Below the pieces are notes generated by a model. The model had not been told where the DNA came from. It searched no databases and was given only the letters and a program-made list of their open reading frames with translations. Shown here in pieces: positions 25,925 through 52,711 of a DNA stretch of 64,000 bases. Numbering within the stretch: the first letter of the stretch is position 1; every line of letters starts with the position of its first letter. Source of the DNA: Candidatus Baltobacteraceae bacterium (lineage in GTDB: Bacteria; Vulcanimicrobiota; Vulcanimicrobiia; Vulcanimicrobiales; Vulcanimicrobiaceae); assembly GCA_036488875.1 (NCBI GenBank), contig DASXGW010000013.1, positions 169,281 to 233,280 on the forward strand, in the 5' to 3' direction. The translations under genes were made by a program, and so were the position numbers.

Positions 25925-27250
25925 GTGCCTGTTATTGTAATCGTGGGCGGCGGTTTCGCCGGAAGCGCGGTCGCCCGACAGCTCGAACGCCGCCTCGAAC
26001 CGCGGGAAGCCGAAATCGTGCTGCTCAGCCGGGAGAACTACACGCTCTTCACGCCGATGCTGCCCGAGGTCACGGCCGGGGCGCTCGAGGTGCGCCACAT
26101 CGTCACGCCGATTCGCACCGAGCTCCGCCACACGTCATTCGTCCTGGCCGACGTAACGGAAGTCGATACGAACCGCAGCCGCGTCGAATTTCGTCACGTG
26201 CTCACCGGCTTATCCGAAACGGTCGAGTACGATCACCTCGTCTTAGCTCTCGGATCGTCCACTTCGACCTTCGGACTGCCCGGCGTCGCTGAATACGCCT
26301 GGAGCATGAAGTCGCTCGAAGATGCCGACGCGCTGCGCAATCGCTTCGTCTGGCTGCTCGAACTGGCCGATACGCTGCCGCCGAGCGACCGGCGCGCATC
26401 GCTGCTCACGATCGCCGTCGTCGGCGGCGGGTTTACCGGCGTGGAGACGGCCGGCGAAATGGTCGAGCTGTTTCGCAGCGTCTTGCACTTTTATCCGCGG
26501 TTGAAACTCGAGGAAGTTCGCGTCGTGCTGCTCGAAGCGGGTGACACGCTGCTCGCCGGACTGCCGCGCAAGATGGGTGAATATTCGCGACGCAATCTGC
26601 AACGGCGCGGCGTCGAAATCATTTTGGGTGACGGCGTGGCGTCGGCCGACGAAAACGGACTTACCTTGCAGAGCGGGCGCCGCATCAACACGTCGACGAT
26701 CGTTTGGAGTGCCGGCGTTGTTCCGTCGCCGATCGTCAAGCAGTGCGGATTGCCGGCGACCAAGCGCGGCGCCGTCGTTACGCGGTCCGATATGCGGGTG
26801 GCGACGATACCAAACGTGTGGGCTCTGGGCGATTGCGCCGCAATTCCCGACGGCGATGGCGGAACCTACCCGATGACGGCGCAGCACGCGATTCGCGAAG
26901 GGCCGCATCTCGCCGACAACCTCGTTGCAACGCTGCGGGGGCAGCCGACGACGGCGTTTGCTTACCGGTCGCTCGGGATGATGGCGTCACTAGGCGCTCG
27001 CCGCGCCGTTGCCCAACTGCCCGGCGATCGCGTGATCACGGGATTCATCGCCTGGTTCCTCTGGCGCAGCTACTACCTGTTGCGGCTGCCGGGCCTCGAT
27101 CGTAAGCTGCGCGTCGCGTTCGATTGGACGCTCGACTTGATTTTCCCGAGGGATATCGCGGTGTTGCGGATGGGCACCCAGAGGGCCCCCGATGCCTCCT
27201 CAGGCCCTTCGACTTCGGCCCCTCCGGCCCACGCTCAGGATGACGGGTAG
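25925..27250 (+). CDS. ndh: Type II NADH dehydrogenase (NDH-2)
   Basis: A 441-residue flavoprotein that passes electrons from NADH to quinone without pumping protons. The FAD-binding VIVGGGFAGSA is at residues 5-15 and the NADH-binding VVGGGFTGVETAG at about 165. IPNVWALGDCAAIPDGDGG and YPMTAQHAIREG near 300-330 are family signatures. The C-terminal amphipathic helix region (ITGFIAWFLWRSYYLLRLPG) binds the membrane. The final 15 residues or so are encoded by a copy of the dispersed palindromic repeat and do not belong to the family. GTG 25925 is used as start. Confidence 0.92.
   Translation: MPVIVIVGGGFAGSAVARQLERRLEPREAEIVLLSRENYTLFTPMLPEVTAGALEVRHIVTPIRTELRHTSFVLADVTEVDTNRSRVEFRHVLTGLSETVEYDHLVLALGSSTSTFGLPGVAEYAWSMKSLEDADALRNRFVWLLELADTLPPSDRRASLLTIAVVGGGFTGVETAGEMVELFRSVLHFYPRLKLEEVRVVLLEAGDTLLAGLPRKMGEYSRRNLQRRGVEIILGDGVASADENGLTLQSGRRINTSTIVWSAGVVPSPIVKQCGLPATKRGAVVTRSDMRVATIPNVWALGDCAAIPDGDGGTYPMTAQHAIREGPHLADNLVATLRGQPTTAFAYRSLGMMASLGARRAVAQLPGDRVITGFIAWFLWRSYYLLRLPGLDRKLRVAFDWTLDLIFPRDIAVLRMGTQRAPDASSGPSTSAPPAHAQDDG
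27203..27246 (-). repeat. Dispersed palindromic repeat, copy 1 (reverse orientation)
   Basis: On the minus strand this reads CCCGTCATCCTGAGCGTG, a G/C-rich inner stem, then GAAGTCGAAGGGCC. It matches the copies at 31125, 50007 and 51644. It lies within the 3' end of ndh and supplies the last residues GPSTSAPPAHAQDDG and the stop region. Confidence 0.75.
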
Positions 27251-29440: not shown

Positions 29441-30261
29441 GCCTGCGCGCCCAAGCGCCATGTGGCGACGAACGCGCGAAAGACGACCGGAAAGTCGACG
29501 TGCTCGAACCGCACGCTGCGCGGCCCGGTGCGCGCGAATCCCGGAATCATCTCGACGAGATCGGCCTGCTCCGTCTTGGCCAGCGTGATTTCCAGCTGAA
29601 TCGGCGGTTCGAAGCGATAGGGTTTTGCGGCTGCCGCATTTTCGATTGCGGCGCGCGCGCCGTCGCGAATCGCGCGCTGCGCCGCGGCCGGCGTCAGCGA
29701 CGTGGCCGCAAACGTGCCGATCGACTCTTTGACGACGACGCCTTGTACCCAGGGCATCTGCCCGCGAACGCCTTCGACCGTCGTACGGTCGCCGGTGACG
29801 AGCAGCAGCGGAACGCCGGCGTGTCCGAGCAGTGCGGCGTTGAGCGTCGCTTCGCTGCACACGACGCCGTTGACCGACACGTCGTAGATCACCGACGGCG
29901 TGTAGGTGTGACCGAGAACCGCGTCCGCGTCGCCGATCGCGCCGTGGTAGCCGACGAAAAATGCTCCGCCGAACGACGGATCGGCGTCCTGCACCATCGA
30001 GTGCGGCTTCCGGTTGCCGAAGAGCACCCGCACGTCGGAAGGCATTTCGTCGAGAACGAGATTGCGCATTGGGCCGTGCGAGTCGTTCACGAGAACGTCG
30101 CCCGCGCCGGCCGCTCGCGCGCCTTCGATCGCGCTGCACACCTCTTGCGTGTAGTAGCGGCGGTAAATGGCGTACTCCGGATGGGGGGTGCGCGCGTCGA
30201 CCTGTTCCCACGCGCACACGCCGGCCACGCCTTCCATATCGCAAGAAATGTAGACCTTCAT
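29437..30261 (-). CDS. M55-family D-aminopeptidase (DppA-like), copy 1
   Basis: A 274-residue zinc peptidase of the DppA family, which removes D-amino acids from the N-terminus of peptides. Zinc and catalytic motifs: SCDMEG (Asp8, Glu10), NDSHGP (near 60), VGYHG (near 103), GHTY (near 115) and VVKESIGTF. There is no signal peptide, so it works in the cytoplasm on imported peptides. It is 3 bases after the second M55 gene and overlaps the VanX-type gene, forming a D-amino-peptide degradation operon. Confidence 0.92.
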   Translation of the reverse strand: MKVYISCDMEGVAGVCAWEQVDARTPHPEYAIYRRYYTQEVCSAIEGARAAGAGDVLVNDSHGPMRNLVLDEMPSDVRVLFGNRKPHSMVQDADPSFGGAFFVGYHGAIGDADAVLGHTYTPSVIYDVSVNGVVCSEATLNAALLGHAGVPLLLVTGDRTTVEGVRGQMPWVQGVVVKESIGTFAATSLTPAAAQRAIRDGARAAIENAAAAKPYRFEPPIQLEITLAKTEQADLVEMIPGFARTGPRSVRFEHVDFPVVFRAFVATWRLGAQA

Positions 30262-30264
30262 ATT

Positions 30265-31098
30265 TTACGCTCGCGCGTTCGCGGCGGCGCCAATGCGCGT
30301 AGCGACGATAAACGCCCGCAAAAGCATGCGGTAATCGTTGGCGCCGAAGCGCACGGCGCGCGTACCGATACGCCGGAACTCGGGCATCAGCTCGATCATG
30401 TCGGCGTGTTCCACGCCGAGGGTTTCGACGATCAGCTCGTAGGGCGGATCGAACGTGAATGGCTTGGCGTCGCCGATGCGCCCCATTGCCGCTCGAGCTC
30501 CGTCGCGAATCGCGTCCTGAGCGGCCTTCGGCGTCAGCGAGTTGACCGAAGAAAAGCCGATCGACTCTTTGACGGCCACGCCGACGGCCCACGGCAAATA
30601 CTTCGCGGTCTCGTCGCAAATCGTTCGATCGCCGGTGAGCAGCACGACGGGAACACCGTAGCTTCCCGCCAGCGCCGCAAAGATCAGTGCCTCGCTGCAT
30701 GGGATACCGTTGACGCTCACCGAGTATACGAGGTCGGTCATCGTGTGCGCGAGCGCGGCCGAATCGCCGGCTTTTGCGTGGTAGCCGGTGAGAAAGACCG
30801 CATTAAACCCGCCGTCGAGTGCTTGCCCCATCGAACGCGGCTTCGGTGCGCCCGACAGAATGCGCAGGCCGTCGTCCTGCGGCAGCTCGTCGAACAGCAG
30901 GTTGTGCATCGACCAGTGCGAGTCGTTGACGAGAATATCGGTCGCTCCGCCCGCGCGAGCGCCTTCGATCGCGGCGCGAATCTCTTGCGTCATGTAACGG
31001 CGGTAGATCGGATACTCGTGTGCGTTCGACGGATCGACTTGATTCCACGAACACACGCCCGCCGTACCCTCCATGTCAGAGGAAATGTAAATTTTCAC
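30265..31098 (-). CDS. M55-family D-aminopeptidase (DppA-like), copy 2
   Basis: A 277-residue paralogue of the neighbouring M55 protein, sharing SSDMEG, NDSHWS, TGYHAKAGD, AHTMTD and VAVKESIGF. Half or more of the residues differ, so the two may have different substrates or form a mixed complex like the ten-subunit DppA ring. The start is uncertain: GTG 31098 gives the family-standard opening MKIYISSDMEG, while GTG 31113 would add five residues. Upstream of it lies a copy of the dispersed repeat. Confidence 0.9.
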   Translation of the reverse strand: MKIYISSDMEGTAGVCSWNQVDPSNAHEYPIYRRYMTQEIRAAIEGARAGGATDILVNDSHWSMHNLLFDELPQDDGLRILSGAPKPRSMGQALDGGFNAVFLTGYHAKAGDSAALAHTMTDLVYSVSVNGIPCSEALIFAALAGSYGVPVVLLTGDRTICDETAKYLPWAVGVAVKESIGFSSVNSLTPKAAQDAIRDGARAAMGRIGDAKPFTFDPPYELIVETLGVEHADMIELMPEFRRIGTRAVRFGANDYRMLLRAFIVATRIGAAANARA

Positions 31099-31124: not shown

Positions 31125-31165
31125 TGTCATCCTGAGCGTAGCCATGGATGGCGAAGTCGAAGGGT
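31125..31165 (+). repeat. Dispersed palindromic repeat, copy 2 (intergenic)
   Basis: GTCATCCTGAGCGTA, then the inner hairpin GCCAT-GG-ATGGC, then GAAGTCGAAGG. Its flanks match copies in miaA and the radical SAM gene while the inner stem has a different but still paired sequence. It lies between the second M55 gene and the TPR gene. Confidence 0.75.
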
Positions 31166-31167
31166 GG

Positions 31168-31608
31168 TCATTGGGAGTTCGTTTCGCGTAAGGCTTCCTG
31201 CGCCTCTGCAAGACCCGTTTGCGCCGCGACGTTGCGCGGATTGGCCTTGAGCGCTTGGCGATAGAGCGGAACCGCGTCGGCGTACCGGTTCGCGGCGAGG
31301 TACATATCCGCGAGCTGCGTGATCGCGACGTCGTCGTCGGGATGCTTTGCAATCCGATCGCGCAACGTTTTGAGCTGCTCGGCGACGGCGGGCGGCGGAC
31401 CGCCCTCGACGTTGTCTTGCGAGCCCTGCGATTGCTGCTGCGCGCCTGCGACCGTACCCGGCTTGGCAGCCTTGCCGAAGACCGAGCCCGTCACGCCGAA
31501 CCCTTCGGCAACGAGATACGCCATAATAACGAGGAAAATCAAAGATACGACCGCGACGATCGGGAGTGCAATACGCGGCGGCAAGCCGCGCGACGGTTGT
31601 CTTGGCAC
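31168..31608 (-). CDS. Membrane-anchored TPR protein
   Basis: A 146-residue protein with a proline-rich cytoplasmic start, one membrane segment (about 14-36), a Gln/Ser/Gly linker and two TPR-like repeats: DDVAITQLADMYLAANRYADAVPLYRQALKANP and the following RNVAAQTGLAEAQEAL. This layout recalls the C-terminal TPR part of CcmH/CycH, but no cytochrome c maturation genes are adjacent. A general scaffolding role is all that can be inferred. GTG 31608 is taken as start; TTG 31611 is equally possible. Confidence 0.72.
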   Translation of the reverse strand: MPRQPSRGLPPRIALPIVAVVSLIFLVIMAYLVAEGFGVTGSVFGKAAKPGTVAGAQQQSQGSQDNVEGGPPPAVAEQLKTLRDRIAKHPDDDVAITQLADMYLAANRYADAVPLYRQALKANPRNVAAQTGLAEAQEALRETNSQ

Positions 31609-47814: not shown

Positions 47815-49500
47815 GTGAAAATCGTGGAACTCGACGCGGTCACCATCGGCCAAATCGCGGCCGGCGAGATCATCGAGCGCCCGGCCTCGGTCGTCAAAGA
47901 ACTGGTCGAAAATGCGGTCGATGCCGGCGCGTCGCGCATTACGGTGATTCTCGAGCGCGGTGGAATCGATTCCATCGAGGTCGCCGACGATGGCGCAGGA
48001 CTCGACCGCGGCGAGTTGCCGCTAGCCGTGCGCCGCCATGCGACGAGCAAGCTCGCGACCGCGAGCGACCTGGAGTCGATTGCGACGCTGGGTTTTCGTG
48101 GAGAGGGTCTGGCGTCGATCGCCGCCGTTTCGCAACTCGAGATCGTTTCGCGCCCGTCGTCGGAGGAGGTCGGCGCGCGCGTGCGCGCACACGCGGAGCG
48201 CACGGAGGCCGTCGAGCCTGTAGCGTCGCCGCCGGGGACGCGCGTGCGCGTGGAAAATTTGTTCGGCAACGTGCCGGTGCGCCGCGAGTACCTGCGGTCG
48301 GCCCAGACCGAGTTCAATCGCATCTCGTCGTGGCTCTCCAGCTTTGCTCTAGCGTATCCGAAGGTAACGTTCGCGCTTCGGCACGACGGCAAGGACGTCT
48401 GGACGATGCCGCAGACCGCCGACGAACGCGAGCGGCTCGCCATGGTTTTCGGGCGCGATGCGGCACAGTGGCTGCTCCCGATCGACGAGTCGGCGGCGAG
48501 CACGTTGGATGGACGCCTGCGCGGTTACGTCAGCGCGCCGGGCCACGACCGCCCCGACCGGCGCATGCAGCTGCTCTTCGTCAACGGCAGGCTGCTGCGC
48601 AGCATCTTGATGGCGGGCGCCTGGACCGCGGGGTACGCAACGTTTGCGATGATCGGGCGTCAGCCGTACGGCGTGCTGTTTCTCGAGCTTTCGCCCGAAC
48701 ACGTGGATCCCAACGTGCATCCCACCAAGAGCGACGTGCGGCTGCGCTTTCCCAATCAGGTTTTCGAGGCGGCGCGCCGCGCGATCTCCGCGACTTTGCA
48801 CCGCGACGCATCCGCGCGTTTTCGCGAACACACTGCGCCGGCGGCCGGAGTCTCGGCGCTTCCCGACAGCGTCGACACGAGTTTGGCTCACGTGCAGTCG
48901 CTGTTCGAACGGCCGGTGGGCGACGCCGCCGACGTTCCGAGCCATCGTCTGCGCGTGCTCGCGCAGCTGCACCGTACCTACATCGTCGCCACCGACGGCG
49001 ACGCCCTGTTGCTGGTCGACCAGCACGCCGCGCACGAGCGTATCGCCTACGAATCGATCGTCGAGCGAGCCCGCAAACCTGCGCCGAACGAGCCGATGCT
49101 GGTGCCGCACGTCGTCGAGCTCGACGCGACGCAGAGCGCGGCGCTCGATCGCGTGCTGGAGACGCTCAACGAGGGCGGCCTCGAGATCGAAGGCTTCGGC
49201 GAGCGCTCCTATCGGATTCTCGCAACCCCAGCGGGCTTCGGCGCGCGGACGTTCGATCTGGGCGGTTTCTTGAGCGATCTCACGGAGGATCCCAAACAGC
49301 GCGACGTGCGCGAGCGCGTTTGGGCGTCGCTGGCGTGTCACAGCGTAACGATTGCCGGCGAACGTTTGGAACCCGAAGAGATGGCGACCCTGGTCGAGCG
49401 GCTGCAGCAGTGCGTCAATCCCATGCACTGCCCGCACGGCCGGCCGACGATGGTCCGGCTCGATCCCGGAGAGATCGCGCGCCTCTTCAAACGCACGTGA
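47815..49500 (+). CDS. mutL: DNA mismatch repair protein MutL
   Basis: A 561-residue MutL. The GHKL ATPase motifs are seen as IGQIAAGEIIERPASVVKELVENAVDAGA, ADDGAGLD and TLGFRGEGLASIAAVS. The C-terminal half has the endonuclease motif DQHAAHERIAYE and the zinc-binding-type CPHGRPT, so it should nick DNA. GTG 47815 gives the usual short N-terminus (MKIVELDAVTIGQIAAGE); an in-frame ATG at 47755 would overlap the start codon of the peroxiredoxin gene. The stop overlaps the miaA GTG. Confidence 0.95.
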   Translation: MKIVELDAVTIGQIAAGEIIERPASVVKELVENAVDAGASRITVILERGGIDSIEVADDGAGLDRGELPLAVRRHATSKLATASDLESIATLGFRGEGLASIAAVSQLEIVSRPSSEEVGARVRAHAERTEAVEPVASPPGTRVRVENLFGNVPVRREYLRSAQTEFNRISSWLSSFALAYPKVTFALRHDGKDVWTMPQTADERERLAMVFGRDAAQWLLPIDESAASTLDGRLRGYVSAPGHDRPDRRMQLLFVNGRLLRSILMAGAWTAGYATFAMIGRQPYGVLFLELSPEHVDPNVHPTKSDVRLRFPNQVFEAARRAISATLHRDASARFREHTAPAAGVSALPDSVDTSLAHVQSLFERPVGDAADVPSHRLRVLAQLHRTYIVATDGDALLLVDQHAAHERIAYESIVERARKPAPNEPMLVPHVVELDATQSAALDRVLETLNEGGLEIEGFGERSYRILATPAGFGARTFDLGGFLSDLTEDPKQRDVRERVWASLACHSVTIAGERLEPEEMATLVERLQQCVNPMHCPHGRPTMVRLDPGEIARLFKRT

Positions 49501-50417
49501 GCGACGGCGTGCTCGTCCTCGCCGGAGCGACGGCGAGTGGGAAGACGGCCCTTGCCGTCGAGCTGGCGCTGCGGTTCGATGCCGAGATCGTCGGTGCCGA
49601 TTCGCGCCAGATCTATCGCAGCATGCCGATCGGAACGGCGATGCCTTCGGCCGAGCAGCTTGCGGTCGTTTCGCATCACATGGTGGACTTTCTCGATCCC
49701 TGCGACCGGTATTCGGCCGCGCGCTACGTCGAGGATGCGATGGCGGCGGTCGAGGAGATCCGCCGGCGCGGCAAACGCGTCATCATCGCGGGCGGAACGG
49801 GTTTCTACATTCGCTCCCTGCTCGGACGCGTGGAGCTCGCGCCGGAATACGACGAAGCGCTGCGCGGCCGTCTGGCAGCCGAAGCACGTTCGCATCCGCC
49901 GGAGTTTTTGCACGCATGGCTCTCGGTGCACGACAGGGAGCGCGCCGCCGCACTCGATCCCGCCGACACGTATCGGGTGCTTCGCGCCTTAGAAGTCGCC
50001 CTTATCTGTCATCCTGAGCGTAGGCGCGAAGCGCCGAAGTCGAAGGGCAGGCGAAACCTAGTCACGGCAGGCGTTTCAGCGCTCCTCGTTTTTCTCGACT
50101 TGCCGCTCGATGTGCTCGACGAGCGCATTGCGGCGCGTGCGGATCGTATGCTCGGGCGCGGGTTCGTCGAAGAGGCCGAGCGCGTCGGTGCCGGTGCCGT
50201 CGCCGCCGACGCGGTGGGCTACCCTCAAGCGCTCGCCTTTGGACGTGGTTGGATCACCGAGCGCGAACTCCGCACGCTGCTCGTTCGAGCGACCCGGCGC
50301 TACGCGCGCCGCCAGCGCGCGTGGTTCCGCGGAGAGCGCGAAACGCTATGGCTGCAGCCCAACGCCGTGGAACGCGCCGTACGGGAGAATCTCGGGTGGT
50401 CTCCGAAGGCAACCTAA
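49497..50417 (+). CDS. miaA: tRNA dimethylallyltransferase MiaA with inserted repeat peptide
   Basis: A 306-residue enzyme that adds a dimethylallyl group to A37 of tRNAs reading codons that start with U. P-loop GATASGKT (10-17), DSRQIYR (35-41) and GGTGFYIRSLL (99-109) are intact. Between RALEVA and LLVFLDLPLDVLDERI the protein carries CHPERRREAPKSKGRR (about 171-186), encoded exactly by a copy of the dispersed palindromic repeat. This loop normally holds the TGxx(S) segment of MiaA. Frame is kept on both sides. GTG 49497 overlaps the mutL stop (GTGA). Confidence 0.95.
   Translation: MSDGVLVLAGATASGKTALAVELALRFDAEIVGADSRQIYRSMPIGTAMPSAEQLAVVSHHMVDFLDPCDRYSAARYVEDAMAAVEEIRRRGKRVIIAGGTGFYIRSLLGRVELAPEYDEALRGRLAAEARSHPPEFLHAWLSVHDRERAAALDPADTYRVLRALEVALICHPERRREAPKSKGRRNLVTAGVSALLVFLDLPLDVLDERIAARADRMLGRGFVEEAERVGAGAVAADAVGYPQALAFGRGWITERELRTLLVRATRRYARRQRAWFRGERETLWLQPNAVERAVRENLGWSPKAT
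50007..50049 (+). repeat. Dispersed palindromic repeat, copy 3 (inside miaA, in frame)
   Basis: TGTCATCCTGAGCGTA, inner hairpin GGCGC-GAA-GCGCC, then GAAGTCGAAGGGCAG. It is translated as CHPERRREAPKSKGR. The same flanks, in the same reading frame, occur in the radical SAM gene at 51644. Confidence 0.85.
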
Positions 50418-51476: not shown

Positions 51477-52711
51477 TTGGACTTCCGTACTGCGATCGCG
51501 AAGGACGGATCTATTACGACGAAGAGGTCGAGCCGCTAGCCGACGGCGGCATCGTTCGTCGCGCATCGATGAACGAACTCATCCCCGCGCCCCCCGGCAT
51601 CGTGCAAATGATCTTACCCGAGCGCAGACCATTGCTGCGAGATTGTCATCCTGAGCGTAGCGCCGCAGGCGCGAAGTCGAAGGGCAGGCGTATCTACCCG
51701 TTAGCAGTCGCACTCCCCGCCGGCTACACGCGATTGTTGCTTCCGGCCTACGAAGAGCTTCCGGACGCACCGCCGCTGCCGCTGTTCGGGTACACGTTTG
51801 CCTGCGTGGTCGACGACGAGCTGTACGTCGGTGCGATGAAGACCGACGAATCCGAAGATTGGCAGCCGCGGTACTTTGCCGAGGGCGAGCTCGAAGCGAT
51901 AATCGAGCGCCGGCTGTCGCGCGATCCGGAGAACGGCGTGCTGCGACAGGTTGCGCTCTGCTCGCGCGACTACGGCTGCTTTACGGCGCAAAACGTCTTT
52001 CTCGAACGCGGCGAAGCCGCGCTTCCGGTTTCGCCCAAGTGCAACGCGCGGTGCGTCGGCTGCATCTCCGAACTCGAACCGGATGCCGGCATGCCGTCGC
52101 CCCAACGACGAATCGCCTACGAGGTGACCGCGCAAGAGCTCGCGCGCGTCGCGGTCGCGCACCTCGACCGCGTCGAGGACGGGATCGTCTCGTTCGGACA
52201 AGGCTGCGAGGGCGAGCCGCTCCTGCGGGCGATTTCGATCGCGCGCGCCATCGAAGTGATTCGCTCCGAGCGCGAGAACGGAACGATTAATCTCAATACC
52301 AACGGCAGCATGCCCGGCGAGTTGCGACGCTGCATCGATGCGGGGCTGCAGGCCGTTCGCGTCAGCTTGAACTCGTTCCGCCCGCAATCCTACGCTGCAT
52401 ATTACCGTCCGATTGGGTACGCAATCGACGACGTGCTGGAGTCGATTCGCGTCGCGTCGGACGCCGGATTGCGCGTCAGCCTCAATCTGCTGACACATCC
52501 GGGCGTAACCGACGAGAAGGCCGAACTCGAGGCGATGACCGATTTCCTGGGAGGCGTTCGCGTCGACATGATTCAAACGCGCACCCTCAACATTGATCCG
52601 CACCGGTACTTCGAGATGGTCGGCCGTCCGGACAATCCCCTAGGTATGCGCTACGCGTTAGACGCGATGCAGCAGTTCGTGCGCGTCGGCAACTTCACGC
52701 ACACGCACTAG
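51473..52711 (+). CDS. Radical SAM protein with inserted repeat peptide
   Basis: A 412-residue radical SAM protein. The iron-sulfur motif CxxxCxxC is PKCNARCVGC (Cys190, Cys194, Cys197). Later motifs include SFGQGCEGEPLL and TINLNTNGSMPGEL and VRVSLNSFRPQSYAAYYRP, the usual SAM-barrel strands. About 185 residues precede the cluster and I do not recognise them. Near residue 58 the protein contains CHPERSAAGAKSKGRR, encoded by a palindromic repeat, as in miaA. Start at CTG 51473 is inferred from the ribosome-binding site and overlap with dapF. Substrate unknown. Confidence 0.85.
   Translation: MIGLPYCDREGRIYYDEEVEPLADGGIVRRASMNELIPAPPGIVQMILPERRPLLRDCHPERSAAGAKSKGRRIYPLAVALPAGYTRLLLPAYEELPDAPPLPLFGYTFACVVDDELYVGAMKTDESEDWQPRYFAEGELEAIIERRLSRDPENGVLRQVALCSRDYGCFTAQNVFLERGEAALPVSPKCNARCVGCISELEPDAGMPSPQRRIAYEVTAQELARVAVAHLDRVEDGIVSFGQGCEGEPLLRAISIARAIEVIRSERENGTINLNTNGSMPGELRRCIDAGLQAVRVSLNSFRPQSYAAYYRPIGYAIDDVLESIRVASDAGLRVSLNLLTHPGVTDEKAELEAMTDFLGGVRVDMIQTRTLNIDPHRYFEMVGRPDNPLGMRYALDAMQQFVRVGNFTHTH
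51644..51689 (+). repeat. Dispersed palindromic repeat, copy 4 (inside radical SAM gene, in frame)
   Basis: TGTCATCCTGAGCGTA, inner hairpin GCGCC-GCA-GGCGC, then GAAGTCGAAGGGCAGGCG. Translated as CHPERSAAGAKSKGRR, the same frame as in miaA. The inner stem sequence is reversed relative to the miaA copy but still pairs. Confidence 0.85.

Follow-up and report, generated by a model that had tools for sequence, protein, structure and literature searches.

An interspersed palindromic repeat lies in frame within miaA, the tRNA dimethylallyltransferase gene, of a Candidatus Baltobacteraceae bacterium. Most probably, it is a non-autonomous, TGTC-tagged element of the REP class, in which two conserved arms enclose a hairpin core that is hypervariable, and its genic copies are those that are kept in tolerant loops of the host proteins. 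The genome, 3.7 Mb in size, contains 70 copies with both exact arms, 37 of them forward and 33 reverse, compared to 0 matches for a reversed control pattern. The best-known examples of palindromes located in frame come from Rickettsia.

The copy inside miaA

The window, that is, the whole stretch of 64,000 nt that was analyzed, contains the following features at the miaA locus:

49497–50417, + strand: miaA, tRNA dimethylallyltransferase, host of the element; GTG start, 306 aa; Pfam IPPT, E 2.6e-62
50007–50057, + strand: REP-like element, full extent according to the covariance model; in frame 0 of miaA, encodes CHPERRREAPKSKGRR
50007–50023, + strand: 5′ arm TGTCATCCTGAGCGTAG with the TGTC tag; identical in 25 of 25 sequences of alignment A1
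50023–50035, + strand: hypervariable self-complementary core; stem GGCGC/GCGCC, loop GAA; from covariation and fold
50036–50053, + strand: 3′ arm GAAGTCGAAGG and the species' own tail GCAGGCG

The original prediction placed a palindromic repeat at 50007–50049. The start is exact to the base, whereas the end fell 4–8 nt short, with the covariance match running to 50057. The copy is composed of TGTCATCCTGAGCGTAG, the hairpin, and then GAAGTCGAAGGGCAGGCG, and the core GGCGC-GAA-GCGCC overlaps the 5′ arm by one base, the last G of the arm. It matches the covariance model R1 with an E-value of 2.0e-19, the same copy being among the training sequences of R1. As predicted, the reading frame of miaA is kept, and CHPERRREAPKSKGRR is flanked by RALEVALI and NLVTAG. 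The element spans 16 codons, but the loop is only 6 aa longer than in the MiaA of the same genus, and 2–9 aa longer than in others; therefore, the loop has lost about ten native residues or had them replaced. Thus, the extra loop length that had been predicted is real, but it is not a clean addition of 15 residues.

MiaA orthologs were found in 59 of the 60 relatives, the nearest of which, the only other species of the genus, has a MiaA protein that is 73% identical. The CHPERRREAPKSKGRR peptide was found neither in the MiaA of this sister species nor in that of 28 further relatives that were aligned, and a REP arm was present in the miaA loop of none of six relatives in the ortholog alignments. 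A putative REP arm in the MiaA of one relative (G031, locus L048) was rejected as a chance match. No other examined MiaA has the peptide, and many nucleotide matches exist elsewhere, both of which are in line with the original prediction. The proposed likeness to the Rickettsia palindromic elements was also borne out, with an in-frame location in a housekeeping gene and no counterpart in the MiaA of relatives. The insertion in miaA would have taken place at the level of the species, with the element substituting for about ten residues in a loop that is variable.

The TGxxS-type segment, which the original prediction described as altered, is not conserved at this place in the other genera of the family either; the change therefore predates the element and is not its effect. 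An AlphaFold model of MiaA, built from 18 sequences, has a mean pLDDT of 84.5 and places the insert loop between a helix ending at residue 169 and a strand starting at residue 194; solved homologs are 2qgn, 3d3q, and 2zm5. In the model, the core is intact and the insert is disordered (pLDDT below 50 for insert residues 174–182), and thus it is plausible that MiaA with the insert would retain its enzymatic activity.

Copy number and structure of the element

In addition to the 70 copies with both exact arms, a covariance model yielded 119 matches at E ≤ 0.01, part of them overlapping. TGTC forms the 5′ end of 69 of the 70 exact-arm copies, and GTAG directly precedes the stem in all 70. The arms are constant, whereas the core varies by compensatory changes, with a covariation score of 0.396 compared to 0.085 after shuffling (0 of 500 shuffles). 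DNA folding of single copies was no stronger than that of shuffled sequences, so that the hairpin is claimed from the core covariation, not from single-copy folding. The inner variable hairpin comprises about 8–20 nt, the outer stem carries mismatches on inspection, and the tail is CATC or ATCT. In this genome, an extra GCAGGCGC is present between GG and ATC(T).

Several inverted pairs of the element occur in the genome. At one locus on contig 1 (L081, G000:C1:68533–69634), nine head-to-tail copies with a period of 57–59 nt are followed by four inverted copies with a period of about 60 nt, an array that is unusual for REPs. The flanks of the copies in this genome show a weak preference for C at −7 and −3, for a pyrimidine at −1, and for GC about 10 bases downstream, which possibly reflects a target preference.

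Genomic context and in-frame copies

Genes were called with a simple home-made codon-usage caller on fetched stretches of the genome, of which 91% of the bases are coding. The gene census was based on 97 covariance matches with E-values of about 1e-6 or better: 62 copies are located between genes and 17 across a gene edge, and the remaining 18 lie wholly in genes. Genes are thus strongly under-represented in relation to the coding share, and the in-frame copies are a tolerated minority. The genome-wide count of coding versus intergenic copies, which had been suggested as a check, therefore confirmed an interspersed palindrome but not a specifically protein-coding one. For the copies with both neighboring genes called, these genes are co-directional in 36 cases, convergent in 34, and divergent in 8.

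Spread over about 15 genes, the 18 in-gene copies all lie in open frames, and Pfam domains are present. The hosts are miaA, a radical SAM gene, ileS, dxr, atpG, dnaX, lhr, pabB, biotin carboxylase, pdhC (three copies), an amine-oxidase-type gene, hydantoinase A (hydA), a short-chain dehydrogenase, an MFS transporter, the C terminus of a flavin-dependent oxidoreductase, and a second E2-like gene, the latter two having been identified from sequence alone. All four stop-free frames of the element are used, which results in the peptides CHPER, VILSV, PSTS..AQDD, and ALRLR. In practice, the strings CHPERSE, VILSV, and PSTSLRYAQDD in predicted proteins are to be recognized as REP-derived. Further copies in the window, together with one host gene, are the following:

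51569–52711, + strand: radical SAM gene with an in-frame copy near the N terminus; Pfam Radical_SAM, 1.8e-17; downstream of miaA, hfq, and dapF
51644–51694, + strand: copy in frame within the radical SAM gene, the second such copy of the window; CHPERSAAGAKSKGRR
27195–27245, − strand: degenerate copy that forms the C-terminal codons of the flavin-dependent oxidoreductase gene (25943–27250)
31125–31174, + strand: further copy, at a gene edge, namely, the 3′ end of a long reading frame

The radical SAM orthologs of two relatives (G030 and G033) are without a copy, and the ortholog of the same genus has two copies nearby, in another frame. The three pdhC copies (L066, G000:C4:356162–356586) are distributed over two linkers of the same gene, which encodes a pyruvate dehydrogenase E2; in the sister species, eight arm copies are found at this place, visible as RASAQDDK repeats. 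Elsewhere in the window, positions 29645–31017 contain diverged direct repeats in two pairs, one of 112 nt and one of 137 nt, both spaced by 840 nt, which suggests an old tandem duplication.

The same loops in related genomes

Orthologs from six relatives were aligned and 71 orthologous loops were compared, 23 of which contained REP arms. Altogether, 44 arms were found in the loops versus 7 outside (binomial p 2e-26), which corresponds to 5.6 per kb, compared to 0.19 per kb for the remainder of these gene pieces; this roughly thirty-fold enrichment is an upper estimate, because the alignment may pull neighboring inserts together. Many of the loop arms in the relatives belong to another REP type or have another orientation. 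In the sister species, the copies in ileS and a hemG-like gene have the opposite orientation. The ileS gene of G033 contains three arms of mixed orientation, those of G025, G030, and G006 contain other REP types, and the types in G030, G033, and G025 are structurally different. Several relatives have short, empty loops. The occurrence of other types and orientations in the same loops, as in ileS, suggests that permissive loops have been hit repeatedly. For lhr and hydA, the nucleotide site and the orientation are common with the sister species, and the sequence type is lineage-specific. Taken together, repeated insertion and in-place change of shared copies both seem to occur, and in some genes an old shared insertion probably took on the lineage's own type at a later time. 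As many genera have different REP types in the same loops of ileS, dxr, atpG, pdhC, and other genes, the question of hotspots versus one old insertion becomes testable on a large data set.

Distribution across the family and across phyla

Within the family, the element type is abundant only in its own genome (70 copies), the sister species (G001, 14 copies), and G006 (13 copies). In 21 of the 60 relatives, a sister type is present that has no hairpin core; it reaches up to 249 copies. A second REP type, GTCAYVCYGAGC-NN-GTCGARGG, has 128 and 249 copies per genome in G033 and G035, respectively.

The original prediction referred to this lineage, but the palindrome is not restricted to it. A cross-phylum scan of one genome per species, with a pattern that fixed the arms and left the cores free, retrieved at least 120 stretches, and at least 13 phyla are named among the 80 stretches listed. 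Cultured carriers among these listed stretches include Gordonibacter, Bifidobacterium, Peptoniphilus, Granulicella, and Edaphobacter. Sixteen bases of the 5′ arm, with one position left free, match exactly across at least 13 phyla, and the fixed bases of both arms that are common to these phyla amount to 27. Terminal stems of at least 3 bp were found in 53 of the 68 distinct cores, compared to an expectation of 3.8 and a maximum of 14 among 1000 shuffles. In many other phyla the sequence reads GTC-ATCC...GG-ATC(T/C), and in most of the rest it has ACC(T/C); the 3′ arm mostly continues with ATCT/ATCC or ACCT/ACCC. The second base of GTAG is free in other species (GNAG). In two Phycisphaerae loci (L102 and L175), inverted pairs of elements are 26 nt apart, both with an CGAGTCTTCGAG core, which suggests dimeric units in this lineage.

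A search of the own genome and of 60 relatives found no gene with the RAYT domain Y1_Tnp in the former or in any relative that carries the element type, and RAYT was rejected as the mobilizing enzyme. For other phyla, seven carrier records were searched, two of which gave no Y1_Tnp match, namely, those that hold the Gordonibacter and Bifidobacterium carriers; Y1_Tnp genes are present in some Acidobacteria carriers. At the 80 cross-phylum loci, no recurrent neighboring gene was found within 1.5 kb beyond ordinary genes. The 27 fixed arm bases in at least 13 phyla point to a mobilizing enzyme that is still to be found. The copy number and the pattern of presence and absence suggest that the element has spread.

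Possible modes of propagation

From these results, we infer that a hairpin-forming single strand would be copied by a host enzyme or a shared enzyme other than RAYT. Insertion is mostly extragenic, and most genic insertions would be removed by selection. The surviving genic copies lie in frame, in one of the four open frames, within variable loops or linkers, and permissive loops seem to be hit repeatedly by different REP types and in different orientations. An ordinary variation of the length of the MiaA loop, with a chance resemblance to a repeat, has a practically negligible probability. The loop does vary in length across the family, but an exact element of 48 nt with the species' own tail is present in miaA, and the 70 copies versus none for the control exclude chance. 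Mobilization by a RAYT (TnpA-REP) transposase, with the element being a REP of the GTAG type, is also very unlikely. The GTAG before the stem of each exact-arm copy is as in RAYT substrates; this reading is contradicted by the lack of Y1_Tnp in the own genome and in the relatives that carry the element type, as well as by the free second base of this motif elsewhere.

Alternatively, each loop may have received one ancient insertion that was inherited by all genera and diverged or was converted in place, without any repeated insertion. The same idea was put forward for RPE-4/6/7 (PMC3767692), and the common nucleotide site and orientation of the lineage-specific sequences in lhr and hydA would fit it. 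We nevertheless regard it as doubtful: the ileS and hemG-like copies of the sister species are inverted, the copies in the radical SAM gene differ in frame and site, the ileS genes of G030, G033, and G025 contain structurally different REP types, several relatives have short empty loops, and the miaA copy leaves no trace in the relatives examined. A functional RNA or DNA element under selection, for example, a terminator or an mRNA stabilizer, with accidental in-gene copies, is rather unlikely. The enrichment between convergent and co-directional genes and the depletion between divergent genes, as in other REPs, would be expected for such an element, but its core is hypervariable, the REP types turn over fast between genera, and the spread itself would be left unexplained. 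The broadest interpretation, which we consider improbable, is a single pan-bacterial hairpin family, with invariant arms and a self-complementary core that changes freely, which is copied within and between genomes by a widespread arm-reading enzyme still to be discovered, its loop copies being rewritten to the type of the lineage. If this interpretation is true, surface loops of proteins would be in concerted evolution.

Comparison with known systems

The best reading of the sequence is that the non-autonomous, TGTC-tagged element is probably related to the superfamily of CGTC-tagged REPs and RPE-4/6. The members of the CGTC superfamily carry an unpaired terminal CGTC, TGTC, or CCTC tag and a stem of 8–9 bp that opens with complementary AT, and the superfamily includes RPE-4 and RPE-6 of Rickettsia (PMC3733652). 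They have a loop of 4–5 nt and a CCA-like tail, and no dedicated transposase has been found for them (Di Nocera et al., 2013, PMC3733652). The element described here has in common with them the TGTC tag followed by AT, the palindromic organization, the lack of a dedicated transposase, the mainly intergenic location with few copies between divergent genes, and the minority of in-frame copies within genes, among them genes for tRNA synthetases and for DNA repair. However, it is longer, it has a hypervariable inner hairpin instead of their loop of 4–5 nt, its outer stem is mismatched, its tail is not CCA, and it is found in at least 13 phyla compared to 5. As its loop and tail differ from those of the four published CGTC families, the element is regarded as a related variant and not as a member of these families. 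A literature search retrieved nothing relevant on the nucleotide arms or the encoded peptides.

The GTAG REPs and REPINs with RAYT (PMC2817692, PMC3116915, PMC8266576) are likewise short imperfect palindromes with about 100 copies, lineage-specific types, and inverted pairs. In contrast to them, the relatives that carry the present element are without RAYT, and the TGTC tag is located at the outer end.

RPE-4, -6, and -7 of Rickettsia japonica have ATGAC in common, and orthologous loci are occupied by different RPE groups; the authors left undecided whether this reflects hotspots or one diverged insertion (PMC3767692). The element contains the same motif (ATGAC = GTCAT), and the sequence comparison with the RPEs covered this motif. 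It also resembles the RPEs in its in-frame location in housekeeping genes at exposed loops and in the occupation of orthologous loci by different groups. It differs from them in its occurrence in another phylum, in a larger genome of 3.7 Mb with a high G+C content, and in its mainly intergenic copies. Altogether, this is the same phenomenon as published for Rickettsia, here in an unrelated bacterial family, and the insertion of REP-like DNA into proteins is thus open to study well outside Rickettsia.
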